Below, piece by piece: positions 4,776-47,105 of a stretch of 64,000 nt of DNA (position 1 is its first letter; each line of letters opens with the position of its first letter). Location of the stretch: contig NZ_JACAFP010000008.1 of NCBI RefSeq assembly GCF_015354505.1, positions 62,005-126,004 of the forward strand, read 5' to 3'. The notes below the pieces were generated by a model. The model saw only the letters and a list, made by a program, of their open reading frames with translations, ran no database searches and was not told the DNA's origin. Origin of the DNA: Microbacterium sp. UFMG61 (GTDB lineage Bacteria; Actinomycetota; Actinomycetes; Actinomycetales; Microbacteriaceae). The position numbers were made by a program, and so were the translations under genes.

Positions 4776-5116
4776 GTCGTCACCGGCGCCAGCCGCCCGA
4801 GGCAACGGTTCACATCCGCACTCAGTTCGGCATAGCTCGCGGTCGCGGACGCAGGAAGGGCACGGATGACGACATCCGTGCCCTCGGGAACTCGCGGGAG
4901 CGCCTCCGCGCAGACGGCCTTGAGGCGTCGACGGACGGAGTTGCGCACCACTGCGGTGCCAACCTGCTTGCTGATGATGAATCCGAACCTCGCGGCTCTG
5001 CTCTCGCCCGTCGTCATCATCGAGGTGACGACGCGCGCCCCGCCACAACGTGTCCCACGTCGAACGACCAGTCGATAGTCGCTACCGCGGGTCAGGCGAT
5101 ACGGGCGGGCGAGCAC
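4772..5116 (-). CDS. rnpA: Ribonuclease P protein component
   Basis: RnpA is the protein subunit of RNase P, which matures the 5' end of pre-tRNA together with the M1-type RNA. The 114-residue basic protein shows the diagnostic motif RNSVRRRLK near residues 58-66, preceded by FGFIISKQVGTAV. It starts at a GTG six bases after the rpmH stop and overlaps yidD at its 3' end. The RNase P RNA gene itself was not seen in this window. Confidence 0.95.
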   Translation of the reverse strand: MLARPYRLTRGSDYRLVVRRGTRCGGARVVTSMMTTGESRAARFGFIISKQVGTAVVRNSVRRRLKAVCAEALPRVPEGTDVVIRALPASATASYAELSADVNRCLGRLAPVTT

Positions 5117-5122
5117 AGCGGT

Positions 5123-5260
5123 TTACGCGGAGAGCTCGGTGCGGCCCTTCGCGCGGCGAGCCGACAGGATCGCGCGGCCGGCGCGGGTGCGCATGCGAAG
5201 ACGGAAACCGTGCTTCTTGGCACGACGACGGTTGTTGGGCTGGAAGGTGCGCTTGCTCAT
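5123..5260 (-). CDS. rpmH: 50S ribosomal protein L34
   Basis: L34 is a 45-residue, highly basic protein of the large ribosomal subunit. It starts [19 protein letters not shown] and ends KGRTELSA, as in other actinobacteria. The start at 5260 is chosen because it begins the universal MSKRTFQP motif. A longer frame upstream has no support. It is the first gene of the minus-strand operon through rsmG and is divergent from dnaA. Confidence 0.97.
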
Positions 5261-5579
5261 GAAATCACTCCGGGGAAAGCTGCCACCGGGATCATTTTGA
5301 CCGGAGACATAGGGATCTGCCATTCAGGCATAAGTCAACCGATTAAGGGTACGTCCTGACGGCGCGCAGAGCAAATCTGCGCGCTGGGACACCGGACCTC
5401 CTGCACGATCCGCACAGCCATTATCCACAACCCGCGGCCTGCACGTATGCGCAACACGCGCGCGGATTTCCCAGGGCAGGTTGCCGATCACAGCCGCGAT
5501 GACTACCGTGGCATCCGAAGTTATCCACAGGGAGACGCCCGTCGCCGAACCCTCCCCGATCACCCAGCTCCGGAGCGTC
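5261..5579. promoter_or_regulatory. rpmH-dnaA intergenic region with two DnaA boxes
   Basis: This 319-bp divergent spacer carries perfect DnaA boxes TTATCCACA at 5421-5429 and 5521-5529. They suggest DnaA autoregulation and possibly origin function. Promoters for both rpmH (minus) and dnaA (plus) must lie here. A TTGACT on the minus strand could be an rpmH -35 element, but its spacing to any -10 is poor. Confidence 0.75.
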
Positions 5580-6971
5580 ATGTCCTCACCAGCCCAGCCC
5601 GACGTCCCGATCTGGACCACGGTGCAGGAGCTGCTCGAAGCCGACGACCGCGTGACGCCCCAGCTCCAGGGTTTCCTGAGTCTGGCGGTCCCGGCCGGAG
5701 TCATGGCCGCGACTCTCTATCTCGAGGTGCCGAACGACCTCACCGCAGCCCAGATCAACAAGAGACTCCGACTGCCGATCATGGAGGCTCTCTCGCACAT
5801 CGGCGACGAGGTCACGTCGTACCGGGTGGTGGTGAACCACGAGCTCGCCGAACAGCCGACCGCGCCGATCGCAGTCCCTGACTTCGGCCGACAGGAGAAC
5901 GTCCGCATCGAGTCGCCCATGGAGCAGCCCACTCCGATGCGGCACGAGTCGCGACTCAACCCGAAGTACACCTTCGACAACTTCGTGATCGGTCAGTCCA
6001 ACCGCTTCGCGCACGCTGCCGCGGTCGCCGTGGCCGAAGCGCCGGCCAAGGCCTACAACCCGCTCTTCATCTATGGAGACTCCGGGCTGGGCAAGACACA
6101 CCTGCTGCACGCGATCGGGGATTACGCACAGTCCCTCTATGCAGGAGTGAAGGTGCGGTACGTCTCGAGCGAGGAGTTCACGAACGACTTCATCAACTCG
6201 ATCGCGAACAACCGCGGCGCCGCGTTCCAGGCCCGGTATCGCGACGTCGACATCCTCCTCATCGATGACATCCAGTTCCTTCAGGGGCGTGCCGAGACGC
6301 AGGAAGCCTTCTTCCACACCTTCAACACACTGCACGACCACAACAAGCAGGTCGTCATCACCAGCGATGTGGCCCCGAAGCACCTGACCGGCTTCGAAGA
6401 CCGCATGCGCAGTCGGTTCGAATGGGGCCTCATCACCGATGTGCAGGCGCCCGACCTCGAGACGCGCATCGCGATCCTCCGCAAGAAGGCACAGAGCGAG
6501 GCGCTCCACATCCCTGACGAGGTGCTCGAGTACATCGCCACGGTGGTCTCCTCCAACATCCGCGAACTCGAGGGCGCCCTGATCCGGGTGTCCGCGTTCG
6601 CGAGCCTGAACCGTTCCGCTCTCGACATCTCGCTCGCCCAGACCGTGCTGCGCGACATCATCGACACGGCGGAGGACAACATCATCTCGCCGACCGACAT
6701 CATCACGGCGACGGCGCAGTACTTCAAGCTCACGGTCGACGACCTGTACGGCTCGAGTCGTTCGCAGCAGATCGCGACCTCACGACAGATCGCCATGTAT
6801 CTGTGCCGAGAGCGCACGAGCCTCTCGCTGCCCAAGATCGGTCAGCTGTTCGGAAACCGCGATCACACGACCGTCATGTACGCGTACAAGAAGATCAGCG
6901 AACTCATGAAGGAACGCCGTTCGATCTACAACCAGGTGACCGAGATCACCACGCAGCTCGGTCGTCGCTGA
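5580..6971 (+). CDS. dnaA: Chromosomal replication initiator DnaA
   Basis: DnaA binds TTATCCACA boxes at oriC, melts the origin and loads the helicase. The 463-residue form starts at the ATG at 5580, with GGAG just upstream. A longer frame from 5481 would run through a DnaA box and is rejected. Domain I covers about 1-85 and a linker about 90-125. The AAA+ domain has Walker A GDSGLGKT at 166-173 and Walker B DILLIDD ending at 230. The C-terminal DNA-binding helix-turn-helix includes GNRDHTTVMYAYKKI. The linker is shorter than in Streptomyces and typical of Microbacteriaceae. A strong terminator follows directly. Confidence 0.97.
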   Translation: MSSPAQPDVPIWTTVQELLEADDRVTPQLQGFLSLAVPAGVMAATLYLEVPNDLTAAQINKRLRLPIMEALSHIGDEVTSYRVVVNHELAEQPTAPIAVPDFGRQENVRIESPMEQPTPMRHESRLNPKYTFDNFVIGQSNRFAHAAAVAVAEAPAKAYNPLFIYGDSGLGKTHLLHAIGDYAQSLYAGVKVRYVSSEEFTNDFINSIANNRGAAFQARYRDVDILLIDDIQFLQGRAETQEAFFHTFNTLHDHNKQVVITSDVAPKHLTGFEDRMRSRFEWGLITDVQAPDLETRIAILRKKAQSEALHIPDEVLEYIATVVSSNIRELEGALIRVSAFASLNRSALDISLAQTVLRDIIDTAEDNIISPTDIITATAQYFKLTVDDLYGSSRSQQIATSRQIAMYLCRERTSLSLPKIGQLFGNRDHTTVMYAYKKISELMKERRSIYNQVTEITTQLGRR

Positions 6972-6990
6972 ACGGGCACCGCGACTCCGA

Positions 6991-7032
6991 AAAGGGGGTC
7001 ACAGCATCCGAGAGGACGCTGTGACCCCCTTT
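6991..7032 (+). terminator. dnaA rho-independent terminator
   Basis: A perfect 15-bp inverted repeat: left arm 6991-7005 (AAAGGGGGTCACAGC), right arm 7018-7032, 12-base loop. It begins 20 bp after the dnaA stop and separates dnaA transcription from oriC. Confidence 0.85.
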
Positions 7033-7082
7033 GCGTGCGTGCGACGCGCCGTGTGAAGAACGGATCGATGCCACTTTGCACA

Positions 7083-7312
7083 TGTGGATAACTTGTGGAT
7101 GGATGGGGATGAGCTCGGGACGAACATGGGAGAAATCGTCGAACCTGTGGATAACTACGACATGCTCGCGATCGCATCGGATGCTCCCCACCCGCGTAAT
7201 CCTCAGGGATTCCACAAGTGACAACCGTGTAGTTCCCTACTCGCGTCTGCTTTCCACCGAGTTATCCACAGTATCCACAGCTGTTAACACCGTTAAGGAG
7301 TTAATCCAATCC
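7083..7312. other. oriC: oriC: DnaA-box cluster and A+T-rich stretch
   Basis: The dnaA-dnaN spacer contains perfect DnaA boxes at 7083-7091 and 7146-7154 (TGTGGATAA) and at 7262-7270 (TTATCCACA). Near-boxes lie at 7094-7102 and 7271-7279. The A+T-rich run from about 7282 to 7312 (CTGTTAACACCGTTAAGGAG and on) is the best candidate for the unwinding element. Placement between dnaA and dnaN is standard for actinobacterial oriC. Confidence 0.88.
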
Positions 7313-7467
7313 AGGGGCGATCCGATCACCAGACGGTGTGGAAACCCGACCGGTCCCCGGGAATCACATCCGCGTAGGGATCCGTGTGACTCTGGGGCTA
7401 GCATGGGAAGCCCTGCACCGGCAGGGACGATGACGACGCGTCTCAGAACGACGACAAGGGAGCACCC

Positions 7468-8610
7468 GTGAGGTTTCAGGTCAACCGCGATGTCTTCAGC
7501 GAGGCTGTGTCCTTCGTCGTCAAGCTGCTTCCGCAGCGCAATCCGCAGCCGATCCTGGCCGGAGTGCTGATCGAGGCCGACGGCTCCGGGCTCACGCTCT
7601 CGGCATTCGACTACGAAGCATCGGCGCGCACCACCATCGAGGCCACGGTCGAGGATCCGGGCACGATCCTCGTGCACGGTCGACTGCTCTCCGACATCGC
7701 CAGCCGACTCCCGAACGCTCCCATCGAGATCGCCGTCGAAGACGACGGAAGCATCTCGGTCACCTGCGGATCCGCACGCTTCACCCTGGCAGCCATGCCG
7801 GTCGAGGAATATCCCTCCATCCCTGAGGTCTCCGGATCCTCCGGAGTCGTCCCCGCAGATGACTTCGGCACCGCGATCGCGCAGGTCGGATTCGCCGCAT
7901 CGCGCGACGACGTGACCCCGGTGCTCACCGGTGTGCAGCTCGAGGTCTCCGGTCAGAGCCTCAGCCTGGTCGCGACGGACCGCTACCGCGTGTCGCTCCG
8001 CGACGTCCCGTGGGACGGAGAGGCCGTTGAAGCCACGGCACTCGTTCCCGCACGCACCCTGCTCGAGGTCGGAAAGACCTTCGGACACGCCGGCACGATC
8101 CAGATCGCGTTCTCGGGTGCCGGTGACCGCGAGATCATCGCCTTCACCGCCGGGAACAAGACCGTCACCTCGCTGCTCATCAAGGGGAACTTCCCCCCGG
8201 TCCGCCGCCTGTTCCCGGAGCAGACCGACCACTACGCGGTCGTCAACACCGCCGACCTCGTCGAGGCGGTGCGTCGTGTGTCGCTCGTCCTCGACCGGGC
8301 CGCGCCGCTGCGGTTCACATTCGCCAGCGACGGGGTGACGATGGATGCGTCCGGCAGCGAGCATGCCCGTGCCTCCGAGTCTGTGGATGCGATCCTCTCG
8401 GGTGGTGACGAGGTCACGCTCGGTCTCAACCCGCAGTACCTCATCGAGGCACTCGGTGCGGTCAAGAGCGAGTTCGTGCGTGTGACGTTCACCTCGAGCG
8501 ACAACGCCAACAAGCTCAGCCCCGTGCTCATCACGAGCCAGACCTCGGTCGACCAGGCGGGACTCGACTCGTTCAAGTACCTGCTGCAGCCGAACCTGCT
8601 GCTTCGCTGA
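7468..8610 (+). CDS. dnaN: DNA polymerase III beta subunit (sliding clamp)
   Basis: The clamp is a homodimeric ring that tethers polymerase III and other partners to DNA. The 380-residue protein has the normal length and three repeated clamp domains. It begins MRFQVNRDVFSEAVSFV at a GTG start preceded by AAGGGA. It shows the conserved VATDRYRVS motif near residue 170 and RRLFPEQ near 248. It follows oriC directly and heads the dnaN-recF-dciA-gyrB-gyrA series. Confidence 0.97.
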   Translation: MRFQVNRDVFSEAVSFVVKLLPQRNPQPILAGVLIEADGSGLTLSAFDYEASARTTIEATVEDPGTILVHGRLLSDIASRLPNAPIEIAVEDDGSISVTCGSARFTLAAMPVEEYPSIPEVSGSSGVVPADDFGTAIAQVGFAASRDDVTPVLTGVQLEVSGQSLSLVATDRYRVSLRDVPWDGEAVEATALVPARTLLEVGKTFGHAGTIQIAFSGAGDREIIAFTAGNKTVTSLLIKGNFPPVRRLFPEQTDHYAVVNTADLVEAVRRVSLVLDRAAPLRFTFASDGVTMDASGSEHARASESVDAILSGGDEVTLGLNPQYLIEALGAVKSEFVRVTFTSSDNANKLSPVLITSQTSVDQAGLDSFKYLLQPNLLLR

Positions 8611-8674
8611 CCCCGGTACGAACGGGCAGACGCCCGCGACTCCGAGTGTCAGAGGCCGAAGGTAGGCTGACAGC

Positions 8675-9946
8675 GTGATTGTGGAGCACCTGAGTCTGGT
8701 CGATTTCCGCAATTATGCGACCGCCGAACTCACCCTGCACCGCGGGCCGAACGTCCTCGTCGGTCGCAACGGTCAAGGCAAGACGAATCTCGCGGAGGCA
8801 GTGGTCTTCCTCGCGACGCTCGGCTCTCACCGTGTGTCATCCGATGCACCGCTCGTGCGCGACGGTCAGGAGTACGCGATCATCCGCGCCCGGCTCTCCC
8901 ACGGCGAACGCCGGGTTCTCGTCGAGGTGCAGCTCAACAAACAGGGCGCCAACAAGGCGCGCATCAACGGGTCTCCCTCCAAGATCAATGAACTGCCGCG
9001 CTATGCGCATGTCGTGCTCTTCGCCCCCGAAGATCTGCAGATCGTCAGAGGCGACCCCTCATCCCGTCGCCGGTTCGTCGACCAGCTGCTGATCCAACGC
9101 ACGCCGCGCATGGCATCGGTGCTCGGTGACTACGACCGCGTGCTCAAGCAGCGCAACGCCCTGCTCAAGTCCGCTCGAGCTCGCGGGATCAAGGGTGAGG
9201 GACTCAGCACCCTCGACGTCTGGGACGACAAGCTCGTCTCGCTCGGCGCCGAGATCATCAACGCCCGCCAGCGCCTCGCGGCAGATCTGCAGCAGCCGGT
9301 CGCCGAGGCCTATGCCGCGATCGCCGGTGAGGATCATCGTCCGCAGCTGGAATGGGCGCTGTCGGTGCGCGGCGCAGATCCCGAAGACGGCGAATCCGCT
9401 CCGATCGACACCGACGGGGTGCTGAGCACGGCGCAATGCGCCGAGATGTTCCACGCGGCCCTGCTCGCGAAGCGGCCGAACGAGCTCGAGCGCGGTCTCA
9501 CCCTCACGGGTCCGCATCGCGATGACCTCGTGCTGAGGGTTCGCGACCTTCCGGTGAAGGGCTATGCGTCACACGGAGAATCGTGGTCCGTGGCGCTGGC
9601 GCTCCGACTCGCCTCCGCCGAGCTCCTGCGCAGCGAGTCGCCCGCGGGCGATCCGGTGCTCATCCTCGACGACGTGTTCGCCGAGCTCGATGCCGATCGT
9701 CGCCAGCGACTCGCCGCTGTGACCGCCGGCTACGAGCAGGTGGTGGTCACCGCCGCGGTGGAGGAGGATATCCCCGAGGTGCTGCATGCACACGTCGTCA
9801 GGATCACCGCCGGCACGATCAGCGATGACCGCGAGCGCCAGTCGCCACAGAAACTGAGGGATGCGCGGGACGCAGAACCCGCGGATGCGGCGACAGCCCC
9901 CGAGACGACGAGCCCGGCGAGCGAGAAGGACGAGACGGATGACTGA
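8675..9946 (+). CDS. recF: DNA replication and repair protein RecF
   Basis: RecF is an SMC-like ATPase that helps RecOR load RecA at single-strand gaps. The 423-residue protein starts at a GTG (MIVEHLSLVDFRNYA). Walker A is GRNGQGKTN near residue 30, the signature region is LTGPHRDDL and Walker B is LILDDVFAELD. The C-terminus carries an extra roughly 40-residue Ala/Glu-rich tail of no known function. Its stop overlaps the start of dciA by eight bases (ATGACTGA). Confidence 0.96.
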   Translation: MIVEHLSLVDFRNYATAELTLHRGPNVLVGRNGQGKTNLAEAVVFLATLGSHRVSSDAPLVRDGQEYAIIRARLSHGERRVLVEVQLNKQGANKARINGSPSKINELPRYAHVVLFAPEDLQIVRGDPSSRRRFVDQLLIQRTPRMASVLGDYDRVLKQRNALLKSARARGIKGEGLSTLDVWDDKLVSLGAEIINARQRLAADLQQPVAEAYAAIAGEDHRPQLEWALSVRGADPEDGESAPIDTDGVLSTAQCAEMFHAALLAKRPNELERGLTLTGPHRDDLVLRVRDLPVKGYASHGESWSVALALRLASAELLRSESPAGDPVLILDDVFAELDADRRQRLAAVTAGYEQVVVTAAVEEDIPEVLHAHVVRITAGTISDDRERQSPQKLRDARDAEPADAATAPETTSPASEKDETDD

Positions 9947-10442
9947 CATCGCTCCGGTTCCCGCCGCGGAGACTCCCGAGACCGTGGCGACCTATCTGCG
10001 CCTGCGCGGACTGCAGCCCAGCTCGAAGAACTGGAAGCGGAAGCGCCGCGTCGTGGTCGACGACGACAATGCGCCCTTCACTCCCGGTCGCGATCCGGGC
10101 ACGCTCGGCGCGGTTCTCGACAGGCTCACCCGCGATGCGGGGTGGGAGACGACCCTCGCCCGGGAAGACCTCGTGCGCCAGTGGGGCGACCTCGCGGGAG
10201 CGGACACCGCGAAGCACTCCGAACCGGTGTCTCTCGAGCGCGGGGTGCTCACGGTGAAGTGCGATTCGACGGCCTGGGCCAAGAACCTGCAGTTCATGCG
10301 AGGCACGATCCTGACCGAGATCGGACGCCGCTATCCGTCGGCCGGCGTCGAGAATCTTCGCTTCATCGGACCCGACGTACCCTCGTGGAAATGGGGTCCC
10401 AGAGTCGTTCCAGGGCGGGGTCCACGCGATACCTACGGGTAG
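9939..10442 (+). CDS. dciA: DUF721 protein, DciA-like helicase-loading factor
   Basis: DUF721/DciA proteins interact with the replicative helicase DnaB in bacteria lacking DnaC or DnaI, and the gene sits between recF and gyrB throughout actinobacteria. The 167-residue product has a basic N-terminal extension (SSKNWKRKRR) and the DUF721 core from about residue 55: LGAVLDRL, VRQWGDLAG, LTVKCDSTAWAKNLQFM. The ATG at 9939 overlaps recF, implying translational coupling. The function is assigned from family and context. Confidence 0.87.
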   Translation: MTDIAPVPAAETPETVATYLRLRGLQPSSKNWKRKRRVVVDDDNAPFTPGRDPGTLGAVLDRLTRDAGWETTLAREDLVRQWGDLAGADTAKHSEPVSLERGVLTVKCDSTAWAKNLQFMRGTILTEIGRRYPSAGVENLRFIGPDVPSWKWGPRVVPGRGPRDTYG

Positions 10443-38062: not shown

Positions 38063-38145
38063 GCGCGAGTGGCGGAATGGTAGACGCGCTGGCTTCAGGT
38101 GCCAGTGTTCGCAAGGACGTGGGGGTTCGAGTCCCCCCTCGCGCA
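38063..38145 (+). tRNA. tRNA-Leu (CAG)
   Basis: An 83-nt type II cloverleaf with acceptor arms GCGCGAG (38063-38069) and CTCGCGC, discriminator A, long variable arm, and T-loop GGTTCGAGTCC. The anticodon loop TTCAGGT gives CAG. CCA is not encoded. Confidence 0.97.
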
Positions 38146-38186
38146 CAGAGACAGAGGATCGTGATGATTCTCGTCTGACTTCTTTA

Positions 38187-38229
38187 CGACGAAGGCCCGG
38201 TTCACTTCTGTGAGACCGGGCCTTCGTCG
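38187..38229 (+). terminator. tRNA-Leu terminator
   Basis: 15-bp arms CGACGAAGGCCCGGT (38187-38201) and ACCGGGCCTTCGTCG (38215-38229), followed by TTCTT. Confidence 0.88.
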
Positions 38230-38274
38230 TTCTTCGGCACGCAGCCGCAGGCTCACTCGCGGAAGCGCGCCCGT

Positions 38275-38685
38275 CTATCGCGGTGTGCGCCTACGACCGA
38301 TGACGAAGTCCGCCGCGGCGGCGGCACCGCCCCCCAGCGCGTAGGCGACCAGGTCGCCCGGATCGAAGCCGACCCCGAGCACGAGTCGCACCGGCCAGAA
38401 GCCCTGCGCCCACAGCGCCGGCAGGCCGGTCAGTTGGAAGACCTCGATCGCCGCGCAGAGTGCCAGTGCAATCACGCCGACGATCACGACGCTCGCGCGC
38501 GGGAAGGCGACGGCGATGACGAGATAGACCATGACGGCGTACAGGGCATCACCGGCTCGGTCGGCGATCGGTCCCGATCCCACGAGATGCGTGAGGAGGC
38601 CGGCTGCGATCACCAGACCGGCGCTCGCCAGCAGACGCCAGCGTCGAGCGGCTGCTCCCGTCTCACGTGACGAAGGGGAGTGCAT
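38275..38685 (-). CDS. DUF2809 membrane protein
   Basis: A 136-residue membrane protein with four predicted helices (about 17-35, 45-62, 65-82 and 108-126). The second half contains IEVFQLTGLPALW and GFDPGDLVAYALGG, the DUF2809 hallmark. Its function is unknown. It is encoded on the minus strand downstream of the XRE regulator gene with a 62-bp gap, so the two could share a transcript. It lies at the left side of the accessory region. Confidence 0.8.
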   Translation of the reverse strand: MHSPSSRETGAAARRWRLLASAGLVIAAGLLTHLVGSGPIADRAGDALYAVMVYLVIAVAFPRASVVIVGVIALALCAAIEVFQLTGLPALWAQGFWPVRLVLGVGFDPGDLVAYALGGGAAAAADFVIGRRRTPR

Positions 38686-38747
38686 CCGTTCACCCTAGAT
38701 CGCCGCGGTTGGATGCCGCGAGCAACCGCCAGGACCCGGCGATTCGG

Positions 38748-39251
38748 TCACTTCTCCGTCAGGACCGGCGCTCCGCGTTTCTTCTGAGAGCGATTGGGCT
38801 GACGGGAGAGCGGATATTTCTCGTCGAGCCGGGGCTCCAGCACGATGCGCTGGAGAGCGATGATCGCGATGAGTCCGCCCGACCAGTAGGCGATGATGAT
38901 GGCCGCGGCCGCGCCGCCCAGAGGGAAGCTCAGGATCGTCACGGCGATCCCGACGCCGATGTAGAGCATCCGCCACGCGCGAAGCGTGCGGTTGCGGGCG
39001 GCCTGCTGCTCTTCGATGCGCCGATCGAGCGACTCGAGACGATCGGTCTCGTCCATCTCATCGGAGGGTTGGAAGAGGTCGGTGACGCTCACGCTGAGCG
39101 CGTTGGCGATGAGCGCGAGCGATTCGAGGCTGGCGTCCTGTCCGGCCTCGAGTCGTTGCACTGTGCGGAGCCCGACACCGCTCTCGAAGGACAGCTTCTC
39201 CTGCGTCCATCCCTGATCGCGTCGGAGCTCGGGGATTCGTGTGTTGTTCAT
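38748..39251 (-). CDS. XRE-family regulator with two membrane helices
   Basis: A 167-residue membrane-tethered transcription factor. The N-terminal helix-turn-helix (residues about 5-60, LRRDQGWTQEKLSFESGVGLRTVQRLEAG) is of the XRE/Cro type. A charged linker follows, then two transmembrane helices (about 105-125 and 128-145) and a basic tail. The ATG at 39251 begins the HTH; an in-frame extension to 39293 is possible. Its upstream region contains repeat copy A of the flanking direct repeat pair. A regulatory link to the ABC cassette is possible but unproven. Confidence 0.82.
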   Translation of the reverse strand: MNNTRIPELRRDQGWTQEKLSFESGVGLRTVQRLEAGQDASLESLALIANALSVSVTDLFQPSDEMDETDRLESLDRRIEEQQAARNRTLRAWRMLYIGVGIAVTILSFPLGGAAAAIIIAYWSGGLIAIIALQRIVLEPRLDEKYPLSRQPNRSQKKRGAPVLTEK

Positions 39252-39328
39252 GTCTCCATCGTTTCCGCCGGGGTGAACGGCGCACCACGCCATCCACCCG
39301 CCATCCTGCCGTCAGTCGCCCGCCACCG

Positions 39329-39360
39329 ATCCGCCAACGCGCTGCGGAGCCGAGATCGAG
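39329..39360. repeat. Direct repeat copy A flanking the ABC cassette
   Basis: The 32-bp sequence starting ATCCGCCAACGCGCTGCGGA differs from the copy at 42649-42680 at only two positions and has the same orientation. It lies 20 bp past the end of the last cassette gene. The 3.3 kb between copies contains exactly the four-gene operon and its promoter region. Confidence 0.85.
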
Positions 39361-39380
39361 GAGGTACGAGCGAGCCACTG

Positions 39381-40049
39381 TCACCAGGAAGCCTGCTTTC
39401 GCCGCCGGGATCGAGTGTCGCTTATCGAGCGGCGAACCGAAGACGGAGAGTTACGTTCCGAGTAGAGAACTGAGAATGCGATCAGACCGACGGACAGCAT
39501 CGCGAACGCGGAGATCCAGGCTGGCGGGCTCCGCCCTTCCGCCAGCACAAAACCGACCACCTGCCCTCCGGGGAATTGCCCCATATCGAACGCGATCGGA
39601 ACAACGACAACGGGAAGCGCACATATCGCGCCGAGTCGCATGTCGGTGAAGGCCACCACGATGAGCGCCACACCGAAGAGACCCATGAATGCTCGCATCG
39701 GTGCCAGTGTCCCGGCGGTGAGACTCTCCGGGGCGCCCGCCGGGCCGAGCAAGGAGACAAGGCAAGCCCCGAGCGTGCCGACGATGACCAGGACGCTCGC
39801 ATTGAAGAACCGAAGGAGCCTAAGCGGCCGCACCCCGGGGAACTCGAACTGCTCGGACCTGCCGCTGAGACCAAGGGTCAGGATTCCCACGACCAAGATC
39901 TGCAACGGCGTCGCGGGTGCGAAGGTCACGATGCCTGAATCGTGGTAGATCACGAGTGGTTTCGAGCCCAGTACGAGGACAAGCGATTCAATCACCATCG
40001 ATGCCAGAATGACCAGCACCGTGTGACGCGTCTTGAAGTAGATATGCAT
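39381..40049 (-). CDS. Polytopic membrane protein of the ABC cassette
   Basis: A 222-residue membrane protein not recognised as any family. Six helices are predicted: about 8-28, 44-62, 82-104, 115-137, 140-158 and 180-200. A basic C-terminal tail (SVRRSISDTRSRRRKQ) is cytoplasmic. It is the last gene of the operon, six bp after the 424-residue protein, and ends 20 bp before direct repeat A. It is probably a second permease-like or accessory subunit for the ABC ATPase encoded upstream. Base composition looks less G+C-rich than its neighbours. Confidence 0.7.
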   Translation of the reverse strand: MHIYFKTRHTVLVILASMVIESLVLVLGSKPLVIYHDSGIVTFAPATPLQILVVGILTLGLSGRSEQFEFPGVRPLRLLRFFNASVLVIVGTLGACLVSLLGPAGAPESLTAGTLAPMRAFMGLFGVALIVVAFTDMRLGAICALPVVVVPIAFDMGQFPGGQVVGFVLAEGRSPPAWISAFAMLSVGLIAFSVLYSERNSPSSVRRSISDTRSRRRKQASW

Positions 40050-40055
40050 CGGGGG

Positions 40056-41330
40056 TCACGGAAAGTCTGACAGATCAACGGTGCAGTTCGCGTATGCGTC
40101 GAAGTTCGCTGACATCCATGCTCGCGACGCATCGTCGTCGAGCGCGCGGAGCTCAGCCAGAGCCTCCAGGTGCTCGCTCATCAGCTGCGCATTGGCTTCG
40201 GCGCCGGGTCCAGCGAGCCAGATGTCGACGAGAGATGTCTCGAACGTCATCGATGTCTCACAACTCGAGGTATGCAGGTCGACCAGGGACTCCAGCACGG
40301 AATGAACCGCGATGGAATGACTCGCGGGGTTGAGGTAGATGGTGCGGAGCGCACGGACCTCCTCTGTCGGCGCGGGGTGTGAGTCGGTGGTCTGTTCGAG
40401 TTCGGTGAAGGCAGCAGGGGTGTTGCGCATAATGCTCTGAACACGCTCCCAACGCTTCAGAAGGTCGTCCTTTACGGGCAGGTATGTCGGCAGAACCGAC
40501 AGGGCGAGGCTTCCGTCTTCGGATGCGATCCGTGACGTGCGGCTCGCAGCATCCAGGACGGGCACTCCCCACCGCTCGTCCTGGCCATCGACGATCGCTG
40601 CTCCGGTCGCACAGGCTCCCAACGCCAGTGCCGCGATCGTCATGCCCCACCAGCGGTCCTGGGAGGAGAAGATGGCGGTTACGCCTATCAGCAACCCGAG
40701 AAGGCCACAGATGAACAGAAGCTGGCCCAGGAAGAACGGAGGGTTCGACTTGAGGAAATCACCGCCCGCGCGGTTCCCGAACGGAAGCAAACTTCGCGCG
40801 AGACCCGTGCCTTGGCCGAGCAACGCGTAGCCGTAAAGCGCCGCAGGCAGGCCAGCCGCCACCAGAACGGCACCCCAACGCCGCAATGCCCCCGCGGTGA
40901 CATACCCCCAGCCGGCCGCCAGACAGAGGGTCGCGAACGAAACCCCAAGGTTCGCCCAGAGAGGTTGATCTGCAAGAGTGAACAGCAGCCCTCGGCCATG
41001 CAGGACCACAACGATCGCGATGTATACAGCTGCTGCGTACGACACACCAGCGGCAAACTGCAGGAGGAGGATTCTCGCAGCCGGTTGGGTTGCAGTGTCG
41101 AGAACTGGCGCTCCGCCGTGCCGGAACTCGCGAAGTCCATCCCACGCGGCGAATCCGGCGATCACCGGAGCGAGAACCGCACTCGTCGATGCGGCGACGT
41201 TCGCAATGTTCGCTGCGGACGAGACGGAAGGATACGAAGCATTCCAGGCGATCAAGGCGCCCGCCAGCGCGAGCGCAGGCGCCGCCACGAGAAAGATGGA
41301 GTGGCGAATGTGCAACGAGTAAGGGCTCAT
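40056..41330 (-). CDS. Putative ABC transporter membrane protein with soluble C-terminal domain
   Basis: A 424-residue membrane protein I do not recognise. The N-terminal half has about six to seven helices (14-31, 43-60, 86-112, 120-143, 148-168, 196-218 and 228-248). The C-terminal 170 residues are soluble, with several Trp and Asp and two Cys ([12 protein letters not shown] and YANCTVDL), and probably face outside. The ATG overlaps the ATPase stop by four bases (ATGA). It is presumed to be the main permease of the cassette. Transport direction is unknown. Confidence 0.7.
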
Positions 41331-42115
41331 CGGATCGCCGATACGTCGCCTATGTGAGTTGCGAGGTGGAGCCCTGTATAGGCGCGCTCAATCGGCGTAT
41401 TTCCGGGAGCCTGAGCGACGTCGAGAGAAGAGAGCGCCGCGGGGGTGCCGTGAAAGGCGACCCTGCCCTCGATGACCATCAGAATCTGATCGGAATGCAA
41501 AGCGGCTTCGTCGATGAGATGTGTGCTCGTCAAGACGGTGCGGTCGCGTCCGAGGTCGTCGACGAGCCGCCGAAGCATGATTCGTTGTTCGGGGTCGAGG
41601 CCGGAGGCGGGTTCATCCAGGATCAGGATTGATGGGTCGTTCACGATCGCCTGTCCTATGCCTGCGCGGCGAAGCATCCCTCCTGAGAGCGCGCCGAGCT
41701 TGGTGTCGCGGTTCTTGTAAAGGTCCACGCCATGGATCGCAGCTTCGATGCTTGCTCTTCGCTCTTTACGGGGGACGCCTTTGAGCCACGCACAGTAGCT
41801 GATGAACTCGGTCACCGTAAGCGACGGAGTGAAGGTGAAACTCTGCGGCAGGTACCCCGTCTGTCGACGGATCACCGCGCGCCCATGCCTGAGGAGCGGA
41901 TCCTCTCCGAGGATCTTGACGTTGCCCCGATAACGCTGATGGAGTCCAGCGAGGACCCTGAGTGTCGTGGATTTTCCGGATCCGTTCCGACCGACAAGGG
42001 AAGTGACTCCCTTGTCGAGCTGGAACGAGACCCCATCGAGCGCTGGCGTCGACTCTGACTTGTATGACACCGTGAGCTCGGAAACGGTGATGCTCTGAAT
42101 CAAAGGATCAATCAC
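41327..42115 (-). CDS. ABC transporter ATP-binding protein of the cassette
   Basis: An ATPase of 262 residues. Walker A is GRNGSGKST (42-50), the Q-loop is at PQSF (near 91), the signature is LSGGM (143-147), Walker B is [13 protein letters not shown] (Glu168) and the switch His is His199. It resembles drug or lantibiotic-type exporter ATPases. The GTG start at 42115 is chosen because it overlaps the secreted-protein stop by eight bases (GTGATTGA), so translation is coupled. The longer upstream frame is a shadow of the secreted-protein gene. Confidence 0.88.
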
Positions 42116-42533
42116 AGATGGAGAGCTCGCCCGTGTTCCCACTGAGGACAGCGCTGTACCCGGAGAAGTAGGACTGACCGAAGTACTGGCGGGTACCAGA
42201 GCCAGAGCCTGCATCACACTTGGTCGTTGAGCCCCAGTAGCTGGAACGATTGCCCGACCAAGAGAACGTGCTCACCGTCGGGTGCCACCAGCCTTCGCTT
42301 CGGTGAATCTCGTACACCCATGTGCGCTGCGCGCTCGTGCTGCAGGTGCCGGACCCAGAACCGGTGATCTGGCTACCGCTCTTGTATGGCACGCCTGCGT
42401 AGACGGAACATCCCGCAGGCTGCGCGGCCTGAGCTGCGCCGGCGCTCACAGCAATGCCAGCAACCGCAAGTGCGATTGTGATCAGCGCGGCACCCACACG
42501 GCTTCTTCTCGTCGATGAGATGGCTTCTCGCAT
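42108..42533 (-). CDS. Secreted four-cysteine protein of unknown function
   Basis: A 141-residue Sec-exported protein. The signal peptide has basic STRRSR, a hydrophobic core (about 15-30) and an AQA cleavage site near residue 36. The mature part, about 105 residues, is rich in Gly, Ser, Trp and Tyr and has four cysteines (42, 64, 106 and 140), likely two disulfides. GSGSGT occurs twice (58-63 and 109-114). A strong GGAAGGAG ribosome site precedes the ATG. It is the first gene of the operon with the ABC ATPase. It may be a bacteriocin-like or signalling protein; this is inference. Confidence 0.83.
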
Positions 42534-42551
42534 TGTCCAACTCCTTCCAAG

Positions 42552-42574
42552 CACGCAGAGACTCTCTCTGCGTG
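42552..42574 (-). promoter_or_regulatory. Perfect leader hairpin upstream of the secreted-protein gene
   Basis: Ten-base arms CACGCAGAGA and TCTCTGCGTG flank a three-base loop CTC, just upstream of the ribosome site. This could be an mRNA hairpin or an operator. Confidence 0.6.
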
Positions 42575-42648
42575 GCCAACGATCCACGAGTTCGAGAGCG
42601 CACAAAAACGTCACGCGGAGTGAGTGCTGGCATCCCGGAATGGCATCC

Positions 42649-42680
42649 ATCCGCCAACGCGCCGCGGAGCGGAGATCGAG
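42649..42680. repeat. Direct repeat copy B flanking the ABC cassette
   Basis: Starts ATCCGCCAACGCGCCGCGGA and matches copy A (39329-39360) at 30 of 32 positions. It lies 116 bp upstream of the first cassette gene. On its right, an inverted repeat CTAGGCC / GGCCTAG (42692-42714) precedes the rbsK-like gene. Confidence 0.85.
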
Positions 42681-42749
42681 CTGCGAAGGACCTAGGCCGA
42701 GCGTGATGGCCTAGCATCGTCCTGTTCGATCAGATCGGCGGTGCGTGAG

Positions 42750-43691
42750 ATGAAGCCTGTGTACGTGGTGGGTTCCGCCAACATCGACCGCTGCTACTCG
42801 GTCATCTCCTTCCCTCGCGCAGGCGAGACGCTGAATGCGACCGCTTACACGGAGTCGCTCGGCGGCAAGGGCGCCAATCAGGCGGCCGCGTCGGCGCTCG
42901 CGGGTGGCCTGGTCCGGTTCATCGGCGCGGTCGGGGACGACGCCGGCGGAGCATCCGTTCTGCACGCTCTCGAGGCTCGCGGCGTCGAGACGACCCACCT
43001 CACTCGGCGCGATGGCACGGCGACCGGCACTGCCGCGGTCGTGGTGGATGAGACGGGCGAGAACCTGATCATCGTCGCCGGTGGGGCGAACCTCGTTCTC
43101 TCCGGAGACGACGTGCGCTCGGCGCTGGATCGCGCGGAGTCGGGGTCGCTCGTCGTCGCACAGGGGGAGATCCCGGTCGAGGCGATCGCCGCGGCAGCCG
43201 AGGTGGCGCAGTCACGCGGGTTGTCGTTCCTGCTGAACCTCGCACCCTTCGTGCCCGTGAGTGAAGAGGTCCTCCGTTCGGCGTCGCTGCTCGTCGTCAA
43301 CGCCACCGAGGCGATCGACACGGCAGCGCACCTCGGTCTCGGTGAGCCGTCGGATGCGACCGACGCAGCAGCGCGGCTGCGCGACCATCTGCGCATCGAC
43401 GTGATCGCGACGCTCGGGGGAGAGGGGTGCGTCGTGATGGCGACGGACGGCGACTCGACGGCGATCGGCTCACCCGCGGTGGAACGGGTGGTCGACACGA
43501 CCGGAGCGGGTGACGCCTTCGTCGGCATCCTCGCCGCTCGACTGGCCAGAGGCGACGACCTCGTCACCGCCTCTCGTGTCGCCACCGTCGGGGCCTCGTT
43601 CGCGGTGCAGCGACAAGGCACGGCCGAGTCGTACCCGGACGCCGATGAGCTCGATGCGCTCGTCGCCTCGATCGGGACGGTGCCACGGTGA
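42750..43691 (+). CDS. PfkB-family sugar kinase (ribokinase-like)
   Basis: A 313-residue ATP-dependent sugar kinase, closest in style to ribokinase. Motifs are the N-terminal GSANIDRCY, the substrate-binding GGKGANQAAA, LNLAPF and the C-terminal anion-hole motif DTTGAGDAFVG, whose Asp is the catalytic base. ATG 42750 is used; a GTG nine bases earlier is also possible. The stop overlaps the next gene by four bases (GTGA). The substrate is uncertain: ribose is the default for this subfamily but no ribose transporter is close. Confidence 0.87.
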   Translation: MKPVYVVGSANIDRCYSVISFPRAGETLNATAYTESLGGKGANQAAASALAGGLVRFIGAVGDDAGGASVLHALEARGVETTHLTRRDGTATGTAAVVVDETGENLIIVAGGANLVLSGDDVRSALDRAESGSLVVAQGEIPVEAIAAAAEVAQSRGLSFLLNLAPFVPVSEEVLRSASLLVVNATEAIDTAAHLGLGEPSDATDAAARLRDHLRIDVIATLGGEGCVVMATDGDSTAIGSPAVERVVDTTGAGDAFVGILAARLARGDDLVTASRVATVGASFAVQRQGTAESYPDADELDALVASIGTVPR

Positions 43692-44056
43692 TCCGTTCGT
43701 CGACGCGCTTCCCCCGCTCGGTCTACTCGGTGGGCGACGAGCCCGATGCACGTTTCACCCTCGCGAACGAGCGGACCTTCCTCGCGTGGATTCGCACAGC
43801 GCTGGCGCTGCTCGCGGGAGGTGTGGCCCTCGATCTGCTCGGCCTCGACCTGCAGTCCGGATTCCGGCTCGCCGCATCGCTCACCCTCGTTGCTGCAGGG
43901 ATCGTGCTGCCGCTCTTCGGATGGCTGAACTGGGCCGCGACCGAGCGGGCCCTGCGACGCGGCGACGCTCTTCCCGGTTCGTGGCTCGGGGCGTTCCTCG
44001 GGGTCGCGGTCACTCTCGCCGGCGTGCTGCTCGCTCTCGCGATCCTGCTGCGCTGA
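43688..44056 (+). CDS. DUF202 (YidH-like) membrane protein
   Basis: A 122-residue membrane protein of the DUF202 family. It has the signature FTLANERTFLAWIRTALALLAGG near residues 23-45, followed by two more helices (about 58-80 and 97-120). Function is unknown; YidH-like proteins often occur as pairs, as here. The GTG start overlaps the kinase stop by four bases, and its own stop shares one base with the next ATG (TGATG). Confidence 0.85.
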   Translation: MIRSSTRFPRSVYSVGDEPDARFTLANERTFLAWIRTALALLAGGVALDLLGLDLQSGFRLAASLTLVAAGIVLPLFGWLNWAATERALRRGDALPGSWLGAFLGVAVTLAGVLLALAILLR

Positions 44057-44394
44057 TGACGGTCTTCGACCCCGGACTTCAGCCTGAGCGCACCGATCTC
44101 GCGTGGCGTCGCACCGCGCTCGCCGTCGGAGTCGGCTCGCTGGTGTCGATGCGCCTCCTGCCAGCCGTTCTCGGCGACGCGGCGTGGGCGCTCTGCGGTG
44201 TAACGGGAGTGCTCTTCTCGGTGTGGCTGTGGTCGATGGCGCAGCGCCGCTATCGCGAGATCGATCGCCGTCTGCACGTGCAGGGCGACCACGCGGCCCT
44301 CCCGGGCGCGCTACCGCTGCTCGTGCTGGCCGTCGTGGTCGGGGCCGCGGGGACTGTCGCGCTCGGGGTCATCGCTGTCGGGTGGAGGGCGTGA
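44056..44394 (+). CDS. Second DUF202 membrane protein
   Basis: A 112-residue relative of the preceding protein, with the DUF202 signature LQPERTDLAWRRTALAVGVGSLVSMR, three helices (about 20-38, 43-62 and 86-108) and a basic loop (AQRRYREIDRRL). It is co-translated with its neighbours through one-base stop/start overlaps on both sides. The pair probably forms a hetero-oligomeric membrane complex, but this is not shown. Confidence 0.83.
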   Translation: MTVFDPGLQPERTDLAWRRTALAVGVGSLVSMRLLPAVLGDAAWALCGVTGVLFSVWLWSMAQRRYREIDRRLHVQGDHAALPGALPLLVLAVVVGAAGTVALGVIAVGWRA

Positions 44395-44909
44395 TGCCAG
44401 AGGACCGCGGGATGACCCCCTTCCGCGAGCGGAGCACGGGGCCCGGATGGATGCCGATCGCCGGCATCCTCACGTTCGCTCTGCTGGCGTTCGTCGCCTG
44501 GCTGGCGATTCCCGAGCTGGTCGCCCACCCGGAGTCGATGAACGGCTGGCTGCTCGCGGTGGTCGTGGGTGCGACCATCATGGTGCTCATCGCCGTTCTG
44601 CTGTTGATCATGCGCCGGGCGACCGTCGTCGTCACGGCCACCCATGTCGACGTGTACCTCGATCCATTCCGGATCATGCATATATCCCACGAGGTGATCG
44701 AGAGCGTCGAGGAGACGCATGTCTCGTTCGCCGATGCGCAGGGGTGGGGCTGGCGCCTCGCCGGCACGGAGCAGTACCTGCTCTGGTCGGCAGGGCCCGC
44801 CGTGCGGCTGCAGCTGACCCGCGGCGGGGCTCGGATCCTGCGCAGCGATCGCACCGCAGAGCTGATGACGGCGATCGCACAGGCGCGGTCCGACCCGAGC
44901 CACAGCTGA
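44394..44909 (+). CDS. Membrane protein with PH-like (DUF3093-type) domain
   Basis: A 171-residue protein with two transmembrane helices (about 23-42 and 52-73), then a predominantly beta cytoplasmic region (ATVVVTATHVDVYLDPFRIMHISHEVIES) and WGWRLAGTEQYLLWSAGPAVRLQL. It resembles actinobacterial membrane proteins with a bacterial PH-type fold. It starts at an ATG sharing one base with the DUF202 stop. Its function is unknown; it is the last gene of this run, before the 48-bp gap to the siderophore reductase gene. Confidence 0.65.
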   Translation: MPEDRGMTPFRERSTGPGWMPIAGILTFALLAFVAWLAIPELVAHPESMNGWLLAVVVGATIMVLIAVLLLIMRRATVVVTATHVDVYLDPFRIMHISHEVIESVEETHVSFADAQGWGWRLAGTEQYLLWSAGPAVRLQLTRGGARILRSDRTAELMTAIAQARSDPSHS

Positions 44910-44956
44910 CCACGGCAGACTGGAGTGGACGACACCCCCCCACATCAGGAGACCCG

Positions 44957-45754
44957 ATGACAGATCAGCCTCGGAAGGCACCGAGCCAGGCGGTACTCAC
45001 GGTGCAGGAGGTCGAGCAGATCAGTCCCGACCTCATCCGCATCACCGCAGGCGGAGAAGGCTACGAGGCGTTCATCGACAACTCCTCCACGGACAAGTAC
45101 GTGAAGATCCTGTTCGCCGACCCGGCTCACGGACTCACGCCGCCGTACGACCTGACACAGCTGCGTGCCGAGAGCCCCGAGAAGCTCCCGACTCGCCGCA
45201 CGTACACGGTCCGAGCGACGGATGTCGCGCGGCAGCGCCTCGTGATCGACTTCGTCGTGCACGGCGATGAGGGCGTGGCCGGGCCCTGGGCTCGCCGCGC
45301 GCAGCCGGGAGACACCCTCGTGGTCAGCGGTGCGGGCGGCGGGTATGCCCCCGACCCGACGGCGCCGTGGCATCTGCTGATCGGCGACCACACGGCTCTG
45401 CCGGCGATCTCGTCGGCAGTCGAGGCGTTCGCCCCGGGTGCTGTCGGGTACATCGTGCTGTCGATCGCGGATCCCGCCGACCGCATCCTGCCCGAGGTGC
45501 CGGCAGGGGTGTTGGTCCACTGGACGCAGACCGACGACGAACTGCTGTCGGTGGTCGGGAGCCTCGCGTGGCGCGACGGGGACCCGAGTGTCTTCGCTCA
45601 CGGTGAGCGCGGAACGATCAAGGCAGTTCGAGCGCTGCTGAAAGAGCACGCCGTGCCGCGCGAGCACCTCTCGATCTCGGCCTACTGGGCCCGTGGGCGT
45701 GCGGAAGACCAGTTCCAGGCCGAGAAGCGCGAGCCGATCGGTCAGATCGAGTAG
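44957..45754 (+). CDS. Siderophore-interacting FAD/NAD(P)H reductase (SIP)
   Basis: It releases iron from ferric siderophores by reduction. The 265-residue protein has the SIP architecture: FAD-binding domain with KLPTRRTYTVRATD near residues 75-90 and GPWARRAQPGD near 115, then an NAD(P)H-binding domain with HLLIGDHTALPAISS, and the C-terminal AYWARGRAEDQF motif. AGGAGA precedes the ATG by five bases. It is encoded 12 kb from the siderophore importer. No iron box was seen directly upstream. Confidence 0.92.
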   Translation: MTDQPRKAPSQAVLTVQEVEQISPDLIRITAGGEGYEAFIDNSSTDKYVKILFADPAHGLTPPYDLTQLRAESPEKLPTRRTYTVRATDVARQRLVIDFVVHGDEGVAGPWARRAQPGDTLVVSGAGGGYAPDPTAPWHLLIGDHTALPAISSAVEAFAPGAVGYIVLSIADPADRILPEVPAGVLVHWTQTDDELLSVVGSLAWRDGDPSVFAHGERGTIKAVRALLKEHAVPREHLSISAYWARGRAEDQFQAEKREPIGQIE

Positions 45755-45822
45755 ACGCCGCGGGGATCGGTCTCGCTAACGTCGGCTCCGCGGCCCTTCG
45801 AGGGGATTGCTGACCTCGTGGC

Positions 45823-46812
45823 TCAGAATCCCTCCGCCTCCCGCGGAGTGTAGGCGCTCTCGAGTGCCCCGATCTCGGAGGGCTCGAGGCGGATGCCGGT
45901 CGCGGCGACGGCATCCGCGATGTGGCTCGCCTTCGTGGCACCCACGATCGGCGCGGTGACGGCCGACTGCTGGGCGACCCAGGCCAGCGCGATCTGCGCG
46001 CGGGAGACTCCCCGCCCCTCGGCGACGCGCGCGACGGCCTCGACGATCGCCCGGTTCGAGTCCTCCTCTCGGCGATAGAGCGTCTTGCCGAAGGCATCTG
46101 TCTCGGTGCGCGCGGTCGTCTCATCCCAGTCGCGCGTGAGCTTGCCTCGGGCGAGAGGCGACCACGGCAGCACGCCGACACCCGAGTCGAGACAGTACGG
46201 GTGCATCTCCCGCTCCTCCTCGCGCTGCAGCAGGTTGTACTGATCCTGCATCGAGACGAAGGGTGTCCACCCGTTCTGCGCGGCGACATGCTGGGCCTTG
46301 GCGAACTGCCAGGCCCACATCGACGAGGCGCCGATGTACCGGGCCTTGCCCGAGCGGACGACGTCGTGCAGCGCCTGCATGGTCTCTTCGATGGGCGTCT
46401 CGGGGTCCCAGCGGTGGATCTGGTAGAGGTCGACATGGTCGGTGCCGAGTTGCATCAGGCTCGCGTCGATGCCGGAGAGGATGTGCGCGCGGCTGAGTCC
46501 GGCCTGATTGGCGCCGGGGCCCATGCGCCCATGGACCTTGGTCGCGATGACGATCTCGTCGCGCTGAGCGAAGTCGGCGAGTGCGCGCCCCACGATCTCC
46601 TCGCTGGTCCCGTCGGAATAGACGTCGGCCGTGTCGAAGGTGGTGATCCCGGCCTCGAGGGCCTGCTTGATGAGCGGGCGGCTGGTCTCTTCGTCGAGAG
46701 TCCACCCGTGCGCTCCGCGATCGGCGACGCCGAAGCTCATGCATCCGAGCACGATCTTCGAGATCTTCAGGCCGGAGCGGCCGAGCCGCACGCTGTCAGA
46801 AGTGTCGAGCAT
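45823..46812 (-). CDS. Aldo/keto reductase
   Basis: A NADPH-dependent oxidoreductase of 329 residues. The catalytic tetrad is Asp60 (FDTADVY), Tyr65, Lys92 (IATKVHG) and His133 (YQIHRWD). It contains LGRSGLKISKIVLGCMSFG, typical of AKR13-like enzymes. The ATG at 46812 is preceded by AGGAGA. It ends PREAEGF. It stands alone, convergent with the SIP gene. The substrate is unknown. Confidence 0.92.
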   Translation of the reverse strand: MLDTSDSVRLGRSGLKISKIVLGCMSFGVADRGAHGWTLDEETSRPLIKQALEAGITTFDTADVYSDGTSEEIVGRALADFAQRDEIVIATKVHGRMGPGANQAGLSRAHILSGIDASLMQLGTDHVDLYQIHRWDPETPIEETMQALHDVVRSGKARYIGASSMWAWQFAKAQHVAAQNGWTPFVSMQDQYNLLQREEEREMHPYCLDSGVGVLPWSPLARGKLTRDWDETTARTETDAFGKTLYRREEDSNRAIVEAVARVAEGRGVSRAQIALAWVAQQSAVTAPIVGATKASHIADAVAATGIRLEPSEIGALESAYTPREAEGF

Positions 46813-47105
46813 CCGTTTTCTCCTCGCATCGTCGGGTGGGGGTGTGTCGATGCTCTCACGCCTCGGGGAGTGCAGTCGGTGAGATGTTTCGTCTTCCGCG
46901 TCATGAAACGGCGGAATCCGCGTCCTGATCAATGGCGGTGCGACATCGGACTCGTGATCTGACGTCGTGTCGCCGCGTGGACGGCACGGGTGTTCCGGGG
47001 GGAGCCCCGTCGTCGTTCGCGATCAGAGGTGGCGGGCGTCGTGGGGGCCCCGCCACCTCACCCTCCCGACTGCGGCACATCGGGATGTCGCGACTTCTCC
47101 GCTCG

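Follow-up and report, generated by a model that had tools for sequence, protein, structure and literature searches.

The stretch of DNA analysed here, 64,000 nucleotides of Microbacterium sp. UFMG61 (hereafter the window), carries at positions 39329–42680 a four-gene cassette located between two 32-bp direct repeats. The cassette encodes a secreted protein, an ATPase of the ATP-binding cassette (ABC) type, and two membrane proteins, and is absent from the corresponding site in a congener. Judging from the sequence, this locus may specify a secreted antibacterial protein together with a dedicated immunity ABC complex, on a cassette inserted at an att-type site; we assign this reading a probability of roughly 0.55. 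The features of the locus are the following:

39329–39360, plus strand: direct repeat copy 1, att-like, upstream of a helix-turn-helix (HTH) gene; the left flank aligns unbroken through this copy to the empty site of congener G122
39381–40049, minus strand: 222-amino-acid membrane protein with about six transmembrane segments, probable second ABC membrane subunit; a homologue occupies the equivalent position in the related locus L093
40056–41330, minus strand: 424-amino-acid membrane protein of DUF7224 type with six to seven predicted transmembrane segments; assigned by a profile of eight full-length DUF7224 proteins that excluded the window, with the topology taken from hydropathy and positive-inside count only
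41327–42115, minus strand: ABC ATPase of the DrrA/GldA/ABCA-like exporter type, according to library model matches
42108–42533, minus strand: secreted 141-amino-acid protein, putative effector (toxin), with a Sec-type signal and four Cys in the mature part; homologues in loci L093 and L101
42534–42648, minus strand: upstream region of the operon, within the repeats, by sequence position
42649–42680, plus strand: direct repeat copy 2, att-like, on the ribokinase side, by sequence and comparison with G122

The operon reads on the minus strand in the order secreted protein, ATPase, 424-amino-acid protein, and 222-amino-acid protein. The genes for the secreted protein and the ATPase overlap by 8 bp, those for the ATPase and the 424-amino-acid protein by 4 bp, and a gap of 6 bp separates the two membrane protein genes. 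This four-gene layout, as well as the four Cys residues of the secreted protein, agrees with an earlier note on this DNA. The same note placed the repeats 20 bp past the operon end, which is correct, and 116 bp before its start; the actual distance to the first ATG is 115 bp. These four genes are the only ones identified between the repeats, and none of them codes for a regulator, a kinase, an integrase, or a transfer function. No sigma-70 consensus was found in positions 38100–43000.

The two direct repeats are identical at 30 of 32 positions, as described before. When the two 600-bp flanks are compared, the highest-scoring direct repeat reaches 26; in 150 dinucleotide shuffles of the flanks, the mean was 10.4 and the maximum 15 (0/150 reached the observed score). 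The pair is therefore far beyond chance. With up to three mismatches, the 32-bp pattern occurs in the 3.72-Mb genome only as the two cassette copies and has no copy in 294 congeners. Thus, it is not the common dispersed repeat that the earlier note had considered as an objection. Two matches of the repeat core were obtained in viral contigs; both lie inside phage genes without further likeness and were taken as chance.

The empty site that the earlier note had suggested looking for is present in the congener G122. Genus and family placements of all compared genomes follow the labels of the search tool. The HTH gene beside the cassette (38748–39251) is matched in G122 by a gene 89% identical to it, and 17 of 198 genus genomes, the own genome included, match this gene. 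Among seven congener regions compared, only that of G122 (L121) aligns with both cassette flanks. Namely, window positions 38736–39358 and 42705–47063 align to the adjacent L121 segments 4989–5611 and 5656–9960, so that the HTH and ribokinase genes are neighbours in G122, with no cassette and a single repeat copy (L121 5582–5611) between them. This copy shows 4 mismatches in 30 places to either window copy and five to the 32-base pattern, which is why it escaped the pattern search that allowed three. Since about 45 bp immediately to the right of the G122 repeat are poorly alike to the window, the exact crossover point cannot be placed. A comparison of the ribokinase-side DNA with 38 genomes (own included) gave only partial matches outside the own genome.

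The base composition of the cassette differs from that of its surroundings. The G+C content between the repeats is 61.8%, as compared to 68.0% and 69.5% in the two 3.3-kb segments next to the cassette, in line with the lower G+C noticed earlier. Blocks of the same size taken across the window have a mean G+C content of 67.0%, and none of 304 is as low as the cassette. The G+C content at third codon positions is 69–74% in the four cassette genes versus 80–92% in six neighbouring genes.

Genomes carrying all four genes together, a search for which had also been proposed, are G834 and Lacisediminihabitans changchengi. Locus L093 of G834 (another genus label, same family) contains four genes in equal order, all homologous to those of the window. 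The L093 counterpart of the 424-amino-acid protein is 31% identical to it. A scan of named genomes with the window 424-amino-acid protein alone gave no match; the same scan with the window and L093 proteins revealed two loci, both in L. changchengi G11-30 (Microbacteriaceae). One of these, L101, aligns with L093 over 3,483 bp, ungapped and with 98.9% identity, while the rest of the 12–13 kb compared is unlike; G834 and L. changchengi may or may not belong to one genus. The 38 differences between L093 and L101 include 2 synonymous and no other changes in the secreted-protein gene, 11 synonymous and 7 nonsynonymous changes in the large membrane protein gene, and 4 and 3, respectively, in the small one. 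Five further differences lie within the ATPase gene (unclassified) and six are intergenic.

The surroundings of this block were as follows. In L. changchengi, it precedes a TniA-like gene by about 140 bp; this gene codes for Mu-type transposase C-terminal and rve domains, and TniB and a resolvase lie beyond it. In G834, the frame that comes after the cassette (L093 7948–8405) codes for a serine resolvase without its N-terminal part, the domain match being confined to the later portion. On the other side, below L093 4465, a resolvase-like start (by eye) and an IS3-type transposase were seen. Occurrence of a homologous block that is alike in unlike flanks indicates that a cassette of the window's kind has travelled as one piece of about 3.5 kb, with neighbouring DNA different from that of the window. 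Taken with the empty site in G122 and the non-dispersed repeat, this strongly supports the view of the cassette as a transferable unit that the earlier note had put forward.

Several further observations concern the L. changchengi loci. A segment of 13,263 bp including the cassette and tni-type genes is present twice and identical on scaffolds 3 (L101) and 1 (L102), which reflects either a large duplication of recent date or an issue of the assembly. The palindrome AACGATCGTT occurs near both ends of the 3,483-bp block (L101 4567–4586 and 7978–7997), within a 20-bp direct repeat of 80% identity; these palindrome-bearing repeats are possible recombination sites. The L101 424-amino-acid protein had no match in plasmids. 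The L101 cassette DNA matched 11 plasmid records, each over at most 11% of the query; those with annotation matched under ABC ATPase genes.

The Pfam model DUF7224 (PF23866) matched residues 333–416 of the 424-amino-acid protein with 12.3 bits and an E-value of 0.18, which does not reach the gathering score of 27 bits. A profile built from eight full-length DUF7224 proteins, with the window excluded, gave 43.3 bits (E-value 3.9e-13) for this protein and 5.7 bits for the next of the 358 window open reading frames. Judged by this profile, the protein is a divergent member of DUF7224, homologous to full-length members. The earlier note had seen no match to a known family; the relationship exists and is too divergent for detection by eye. 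The C-terminal part of about 175 amino acids is predicted to be extracellular, probably so, and holds C357 and C416. The number of Cys pairs in this part is one for the window protein and two for the eight DUF7224 proteins compared.

Additional members of the family were sought at three taxonomic levels. DUF7224 matches were present in 10 of 197 genomes of the class, and nine of these regions were analysed (a weak match in G656 was dropped). A profile that included the window protein was then used. In the family, 15 of 299 genomes had any match (own included), with eight other genomes strong and six weak ones dropped; in the genus, 8 of 188 genomes had any match (own included), with four congeners strong and three weak ones dropped. 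The resulting set comprised 23 loci, including the window and L101, of which 22 were readable; L074 is cut by a contig end. Because gene calling relied on a simple script, and signal peptides were recognised from hydropathy and by eye, some cases may have been missed.

An ABC ATPase gene was located on the same strand and in the same gene group as the DUF7224 gene in all 22 readable loci, and a small membrane protein (script criterion) was found nearby in 18. An adjoining gene for a small secreted protein was present in 12 of the 22 (window, L093, L101, L068, L071, L075, L095, L096, L097, L098, L100, and L141). In L143, such a gene lies more than 1 kb off on the opposite strand. The other nine loci (L069, L070, L072, L073, L076, L094, L099, L140, and L142) have no secreted partner; L073, which is counted among them, has an adjoining 123-amino-acid frame with a wall-anchor-like tail. 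In L068, one DUF7224 ABC set is preceded by a tandem pair of secreted-protein genes (1778–2242 and 2338–2748), whose products are both of the two-Cys type and 69% identical to each other. A relative of the L068 permease is encoded on seven Streptomyces plasmids. The three inspected, all linear (L159, NZ_CP102515.1; L160, NZ_CP108859.1; L161, NZ_CP038146.1), carry a four-gene cassette, annotated as a hypothetical secreted protein, two hypothetical membrane proteins, and an ATP-binding protein.

Single-sequence searches with the window 424-amino-acid protein were less sensitive. Among 295 genus genomes, only the own protein was found; congener members of the family were thus missed, four of which were later found strongly by the family profile. 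Among 297 order genomes, 24 matches had E-values of 0.001–0.08. Five of these loci were read by gene content and judged to be chance, and the remaining 19 were covered by a script comparison of their frames with the four window proteins. No match was obtained in plasmids and phages. A sequence search of the PDB with the permease profile gave one match (E-value 0.15). DUF7224 is not mentioned in the literature searched, whose coverage leaves out most subscription journals.

The secreted protein starts with a basic N-terminus and a hydrophobic stretch ending in AQA-AQ, and its mature part begins at about AQPAGC. The Sec-type signal, which the earlier note had also recognised, was read from the sequence without a prediction program. 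With this signal, export does not require the ABC complex. The homologues in L093 and L101 are 43% identical to the window protein and retain the four Cys. The first Cys is not in a conserved lipobox (PAGC in the window, PDGC in L093; by eye), which makes membrane anchoring as a binding lipoprotein unlikely. At least three sequence types of secreted partners are associated with one permease family, the L075 and L100 types having been distinguished by eye. The commoner, Trp-rich type has mostly two or no Cys, in contrast to the four-Cys partner in the window; when profiles of these two types were compared, only the signal peptides aligned. The window secreted protein had no match in plasmids or in viral contigs. 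Sequence searches of the PDB with secreted-protein profiles yielded a best E-value of 0.14, which is chance level.

The ATPase matched TIGR03740, the lantibiotic-protection model, with an E-value of 9.1e-28 and 97 bits; the cut-off of 310 bits was not reached. It is DrrA-like, and the ATPase of the lactococcin 972 group is not among the best 25 of the 203 NCBIfam models matched. The two membrane subunits (424 and 222 amino acids) matched no Pfam or NCBIfam model significantly. An assignment to anti-phage defence was rejected; in PADLOC, only the ATPase was matched (best 25 of 33 models).

Flanking repeats were looked for in 20 of the 23 loci, with L074, L099, and L101 left out, and clear repeats were found at two, the window (score 26) and L140 (score 29). 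Six-shuffle maxima were 13 and 16, respectively, and 150-shuffle maxima were 15 in both cases. The other 18 loci scored 8–12, with shuffle maxima of 9–14; L093, L096, and L143 were 1 or 2 above the best of the six shuffles made for each. In L140, from G008 of the same genus, the repeats agree at 33 of 35 places and represent the last codons of a 186-amino-acid gene and a copy 2,925 bp further on, an arrangement as left by site-specific integration at the 3' end of a gene. In a search for this flanking gene, 14 of 179 genomes matched, G008 included, and the others were at most 46% identical. L140 has no whole gene for a secreted protein. A 25-codon frame before its ATPase gene combines a signal-peptide-like start with an end like that of the L141 secreted protein; it may, with caution, be regarded as an internally deleted secreted-protein gene beside retained ABC genes.

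The following sequence of events would account for the window locus. The cassette, which has no integrase, would have been acquired horizontally and inserted by att-type site-specific recombination upstream of the HTH regulator gene; it would then be bounded by two copies of the 32-bp site, which is single in the empty site of the congener. Its secreted product would be a four-Cys antibacterial protein exported by the Sec system. The other three proteins would form an ABC complex of the DUF7224 type, whose permease would use its predicted extracellular domain to recognise the cell's own secreted protein on the outside of the membrane; the ATPase would drive removal of that protein. Producers would thereby be immune and neighbours without the cassette inhibited.

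Other histories of the locus have to be weighed against this one. The direct repeats could mediate deletion, and G122 is the only empty-site genome among the seven congener regions compared, so G122 could have lost the cassette rather than never having had it. We nevertheless regard it as very improbable that the operon is ancestral and that recombination between its flanking repeats removed it from G122: the cassette has a low G+C content, 294 congeners have no close relative of the 424-amino-acid protein, and a homologous cassette is common to unlike surroundings in L093 and L101. In view of its base composition and rarity, the cassette was more probably gained in the lineage of the window than lost in G122. 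It is also rather improbable that a transposition produced the 32-bp repeats as a long target-site duplication and that they are not att sites. In favour of this, the window and G008 cassettes, which belong to one family and occur in one genus, have repeats that are similar in length and unlike in sequence. Target-site duplications usually measure 2–14 bp, however, and the present repeats are longer; neither pair is perfect, with 2 mismatches in 32 and 2 in 35 places; and neither a transposase nor terminal inverted repeats just inside the repeats of the window and L140 (by eye; listed pairs of at least 16 bp) were found. A classical transposon was rejected on the same grounds, namely no terminal inverted repeats at the cassette ends and no transposase inside. 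Dif/pdif modules were considered as well and not adopted. Site-specific insertion has difficulties of its own. Recombinase genes were not found within the window cassette; four matches to tyrosine recombinases lie elsewhere in the own genome. Repeats of the window and G122 were not significantly like those of G008 (12 pairings, smallest p 0.028), so a single recombinase specificity does not explain both insertions. Clear repeats flank just 2 of the 20 loci tested and were found at none of the three plasmid loci, which were examined without shuffles.

With regard to function, the presence of different secreted-protein types beside homologous permeases, together with common ABC sets without a partner, points to an effector/immunity pattern, and the nine partnerless loci are as expected of free-standing immunity. 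The exporter-like ATPase with its match to a lantibiotic-protection model, the predicted outside location of the permease's C-terminal part, and a signal peptide that makes ABC export unnecessary speak for the same reading. Of the roles that the earlier note suggested for the ABC genes, immunity agrees best with these observations. The partnerless loci would also be expected if the secreted protein is not a substrate of the ABC complex. The antibacterial reading is further weakened by two results on the secreted protein: no toxin or bacteriocin model was matched in Pfam and NCBIfam, and fold prediction was poor (predicted local distance difference test scores of 46.8 alone and 41.8 with one relative). 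An unlikely alternative is that the ABC complex acts as a sensor, or as a maturation or retention device, for a secreted signal protein, adhesin, or envelope protein, making the cassette a mobile colonisation or signalling trait. Such a role would fit a secreted protein which has its own signal and no toxin similarity, as well as the predicted extracellular part of the permease; it sits less well with an exporter-like ATPase, with the lack of a regulator or kinase between the repeats, and with the 9 of 22 loci without a secreted partner, which are awkward for a dedicated maturation device. Drug-type efflux, in which the complex would export or detoxify an unrelated compound and the secreted protein would be an accessory binding protein, appears improbable. 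The DrrA-like ATPase and the existence of ABC sets without a secreted partner speak for it. Against it, homologous permeases go with secreted proteins of different sequence type, and lipoprotein anchoring is unlikely where the first Cys has no conserved lipobox.

Going by the sequences compared here, DUF7224 cassettes are probably a little-studied family of bacterial weapons with immunity. We suggest, more tentatively, that they represent widespread and undescribed protein bacteriocins of actinobacteria with matched immunity ABC complexes, travelling as integrase-less 3-kb units that enter different 32–35-bp sites through a recombination pathway provided in trans, with the toxin swapped between unrelated folds and the immunity kept. 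DUF7224 thereby gains a testable function, and so do the hypothetical secreted proteins of Streptomyces plasmids and of Microbacteriaceae such as Lacisediminihabitans. The cassettes may hold narrow-spectrum protein antibacterials of a new class that bring their own immunity with them, and are small enough for cloning in one piece. They also raise the question of what moves a recombinase-less unit of 3.3 kb that leaves 32–35-bp repeats at unlike sites.

Outside the cassette, a perfect 16-bp inverted repeat with 13 nucleotides between its arms was observed at 38186–38230, between tRNA-Leu (38063–38146) and a DUF2809 gene.

Among described systems, lantibiotic protection transporters of the LanFEG/gallidermin type are dedicated to self-protection. 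The window ATPase resembles them in its match to TIGR03740, which is below the cut-off. Unlike in these systems, there is no lanthipeptide gene between the window repeats, and the membrane subunits match no model significantly.

The cassette was also compared with lactococcin 972, for which Pfam and NCBIfam presumably hold family models, including one for a large immunity-type membrane protein with seven transmembrane segments. None of these was matched by the window secreted and membrane proteins at E-values up to 1. The caution of the earlier note, a similar logic without a sequence match, is thus borne out for these libraries. Any resemblance between lactococcin 972 and the Trp-rich secreted proteins is not relied on here. 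Downstream of the lactococcin 972 structural gene lie orf2-orf3, which encode a putative ABC transporter for immunity, and the cluster is reported to enhance plasmid maintenance (PMC4055356). For streptococcin B (scbABC), another source (PMC11796350) states that the immunity genes scbBC persist in strains in which the toxin gene is deleted and that the function of both proteins is unverified. Both systems share with the window a small secreted protein gene in first place, followed by putative ABC immunity genes, and lactococcin 972 is encoded on a plasmid. The Sec signal peptide of the window protein is a further trait in common with the lactococcin 972 family. In contrast to lactococcin 972, the window has two membrane proteins (424 and 222 amino acids), and its ATPase is DrrA-like and encoded second in the operon. 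On this comparison, the cassette resembles lactococcin 972 in logic, with no match of its secreted and membrane proteins to models of that family. The accessible literature on Microbacterium bacteriocins, actinobacterial lactococcin 972 (including PMC12823222), and secreted-protein/ABC immunity on Streptomyces plasmids, from which most subscription journals are absent, does not describe the cassette.

In its integration, the cassette is most like a cis-mobilizable element (CIME), which keeps attL and attR and has lost the genes for integration and transfer (PMC5704250). Like a CIME, it has two direct repeats, a one-copy empty site in a relative, and no recombinase or transfer gene in between. 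It differs in measuring just 3.3 kb, and any descent from an integrative and conjugative or an integrative and mobilizable element is hypothetical; no integrase specific for this site was identified. In gene content, the window cassette corresponds to the loci of DUF7224 proteins in other actinomycetes. Its permease differs from these proteins in the low match to the Pfam model (12.3 bits) and in lacking the first of two Cys pairs, and its secreted partner is of the four-Cys type as opposed to the commoner Trp-rich type. Shared with them are a homologous permease and its partners, namely an ATPase, a small membrane protein, and often a small secreted protein.

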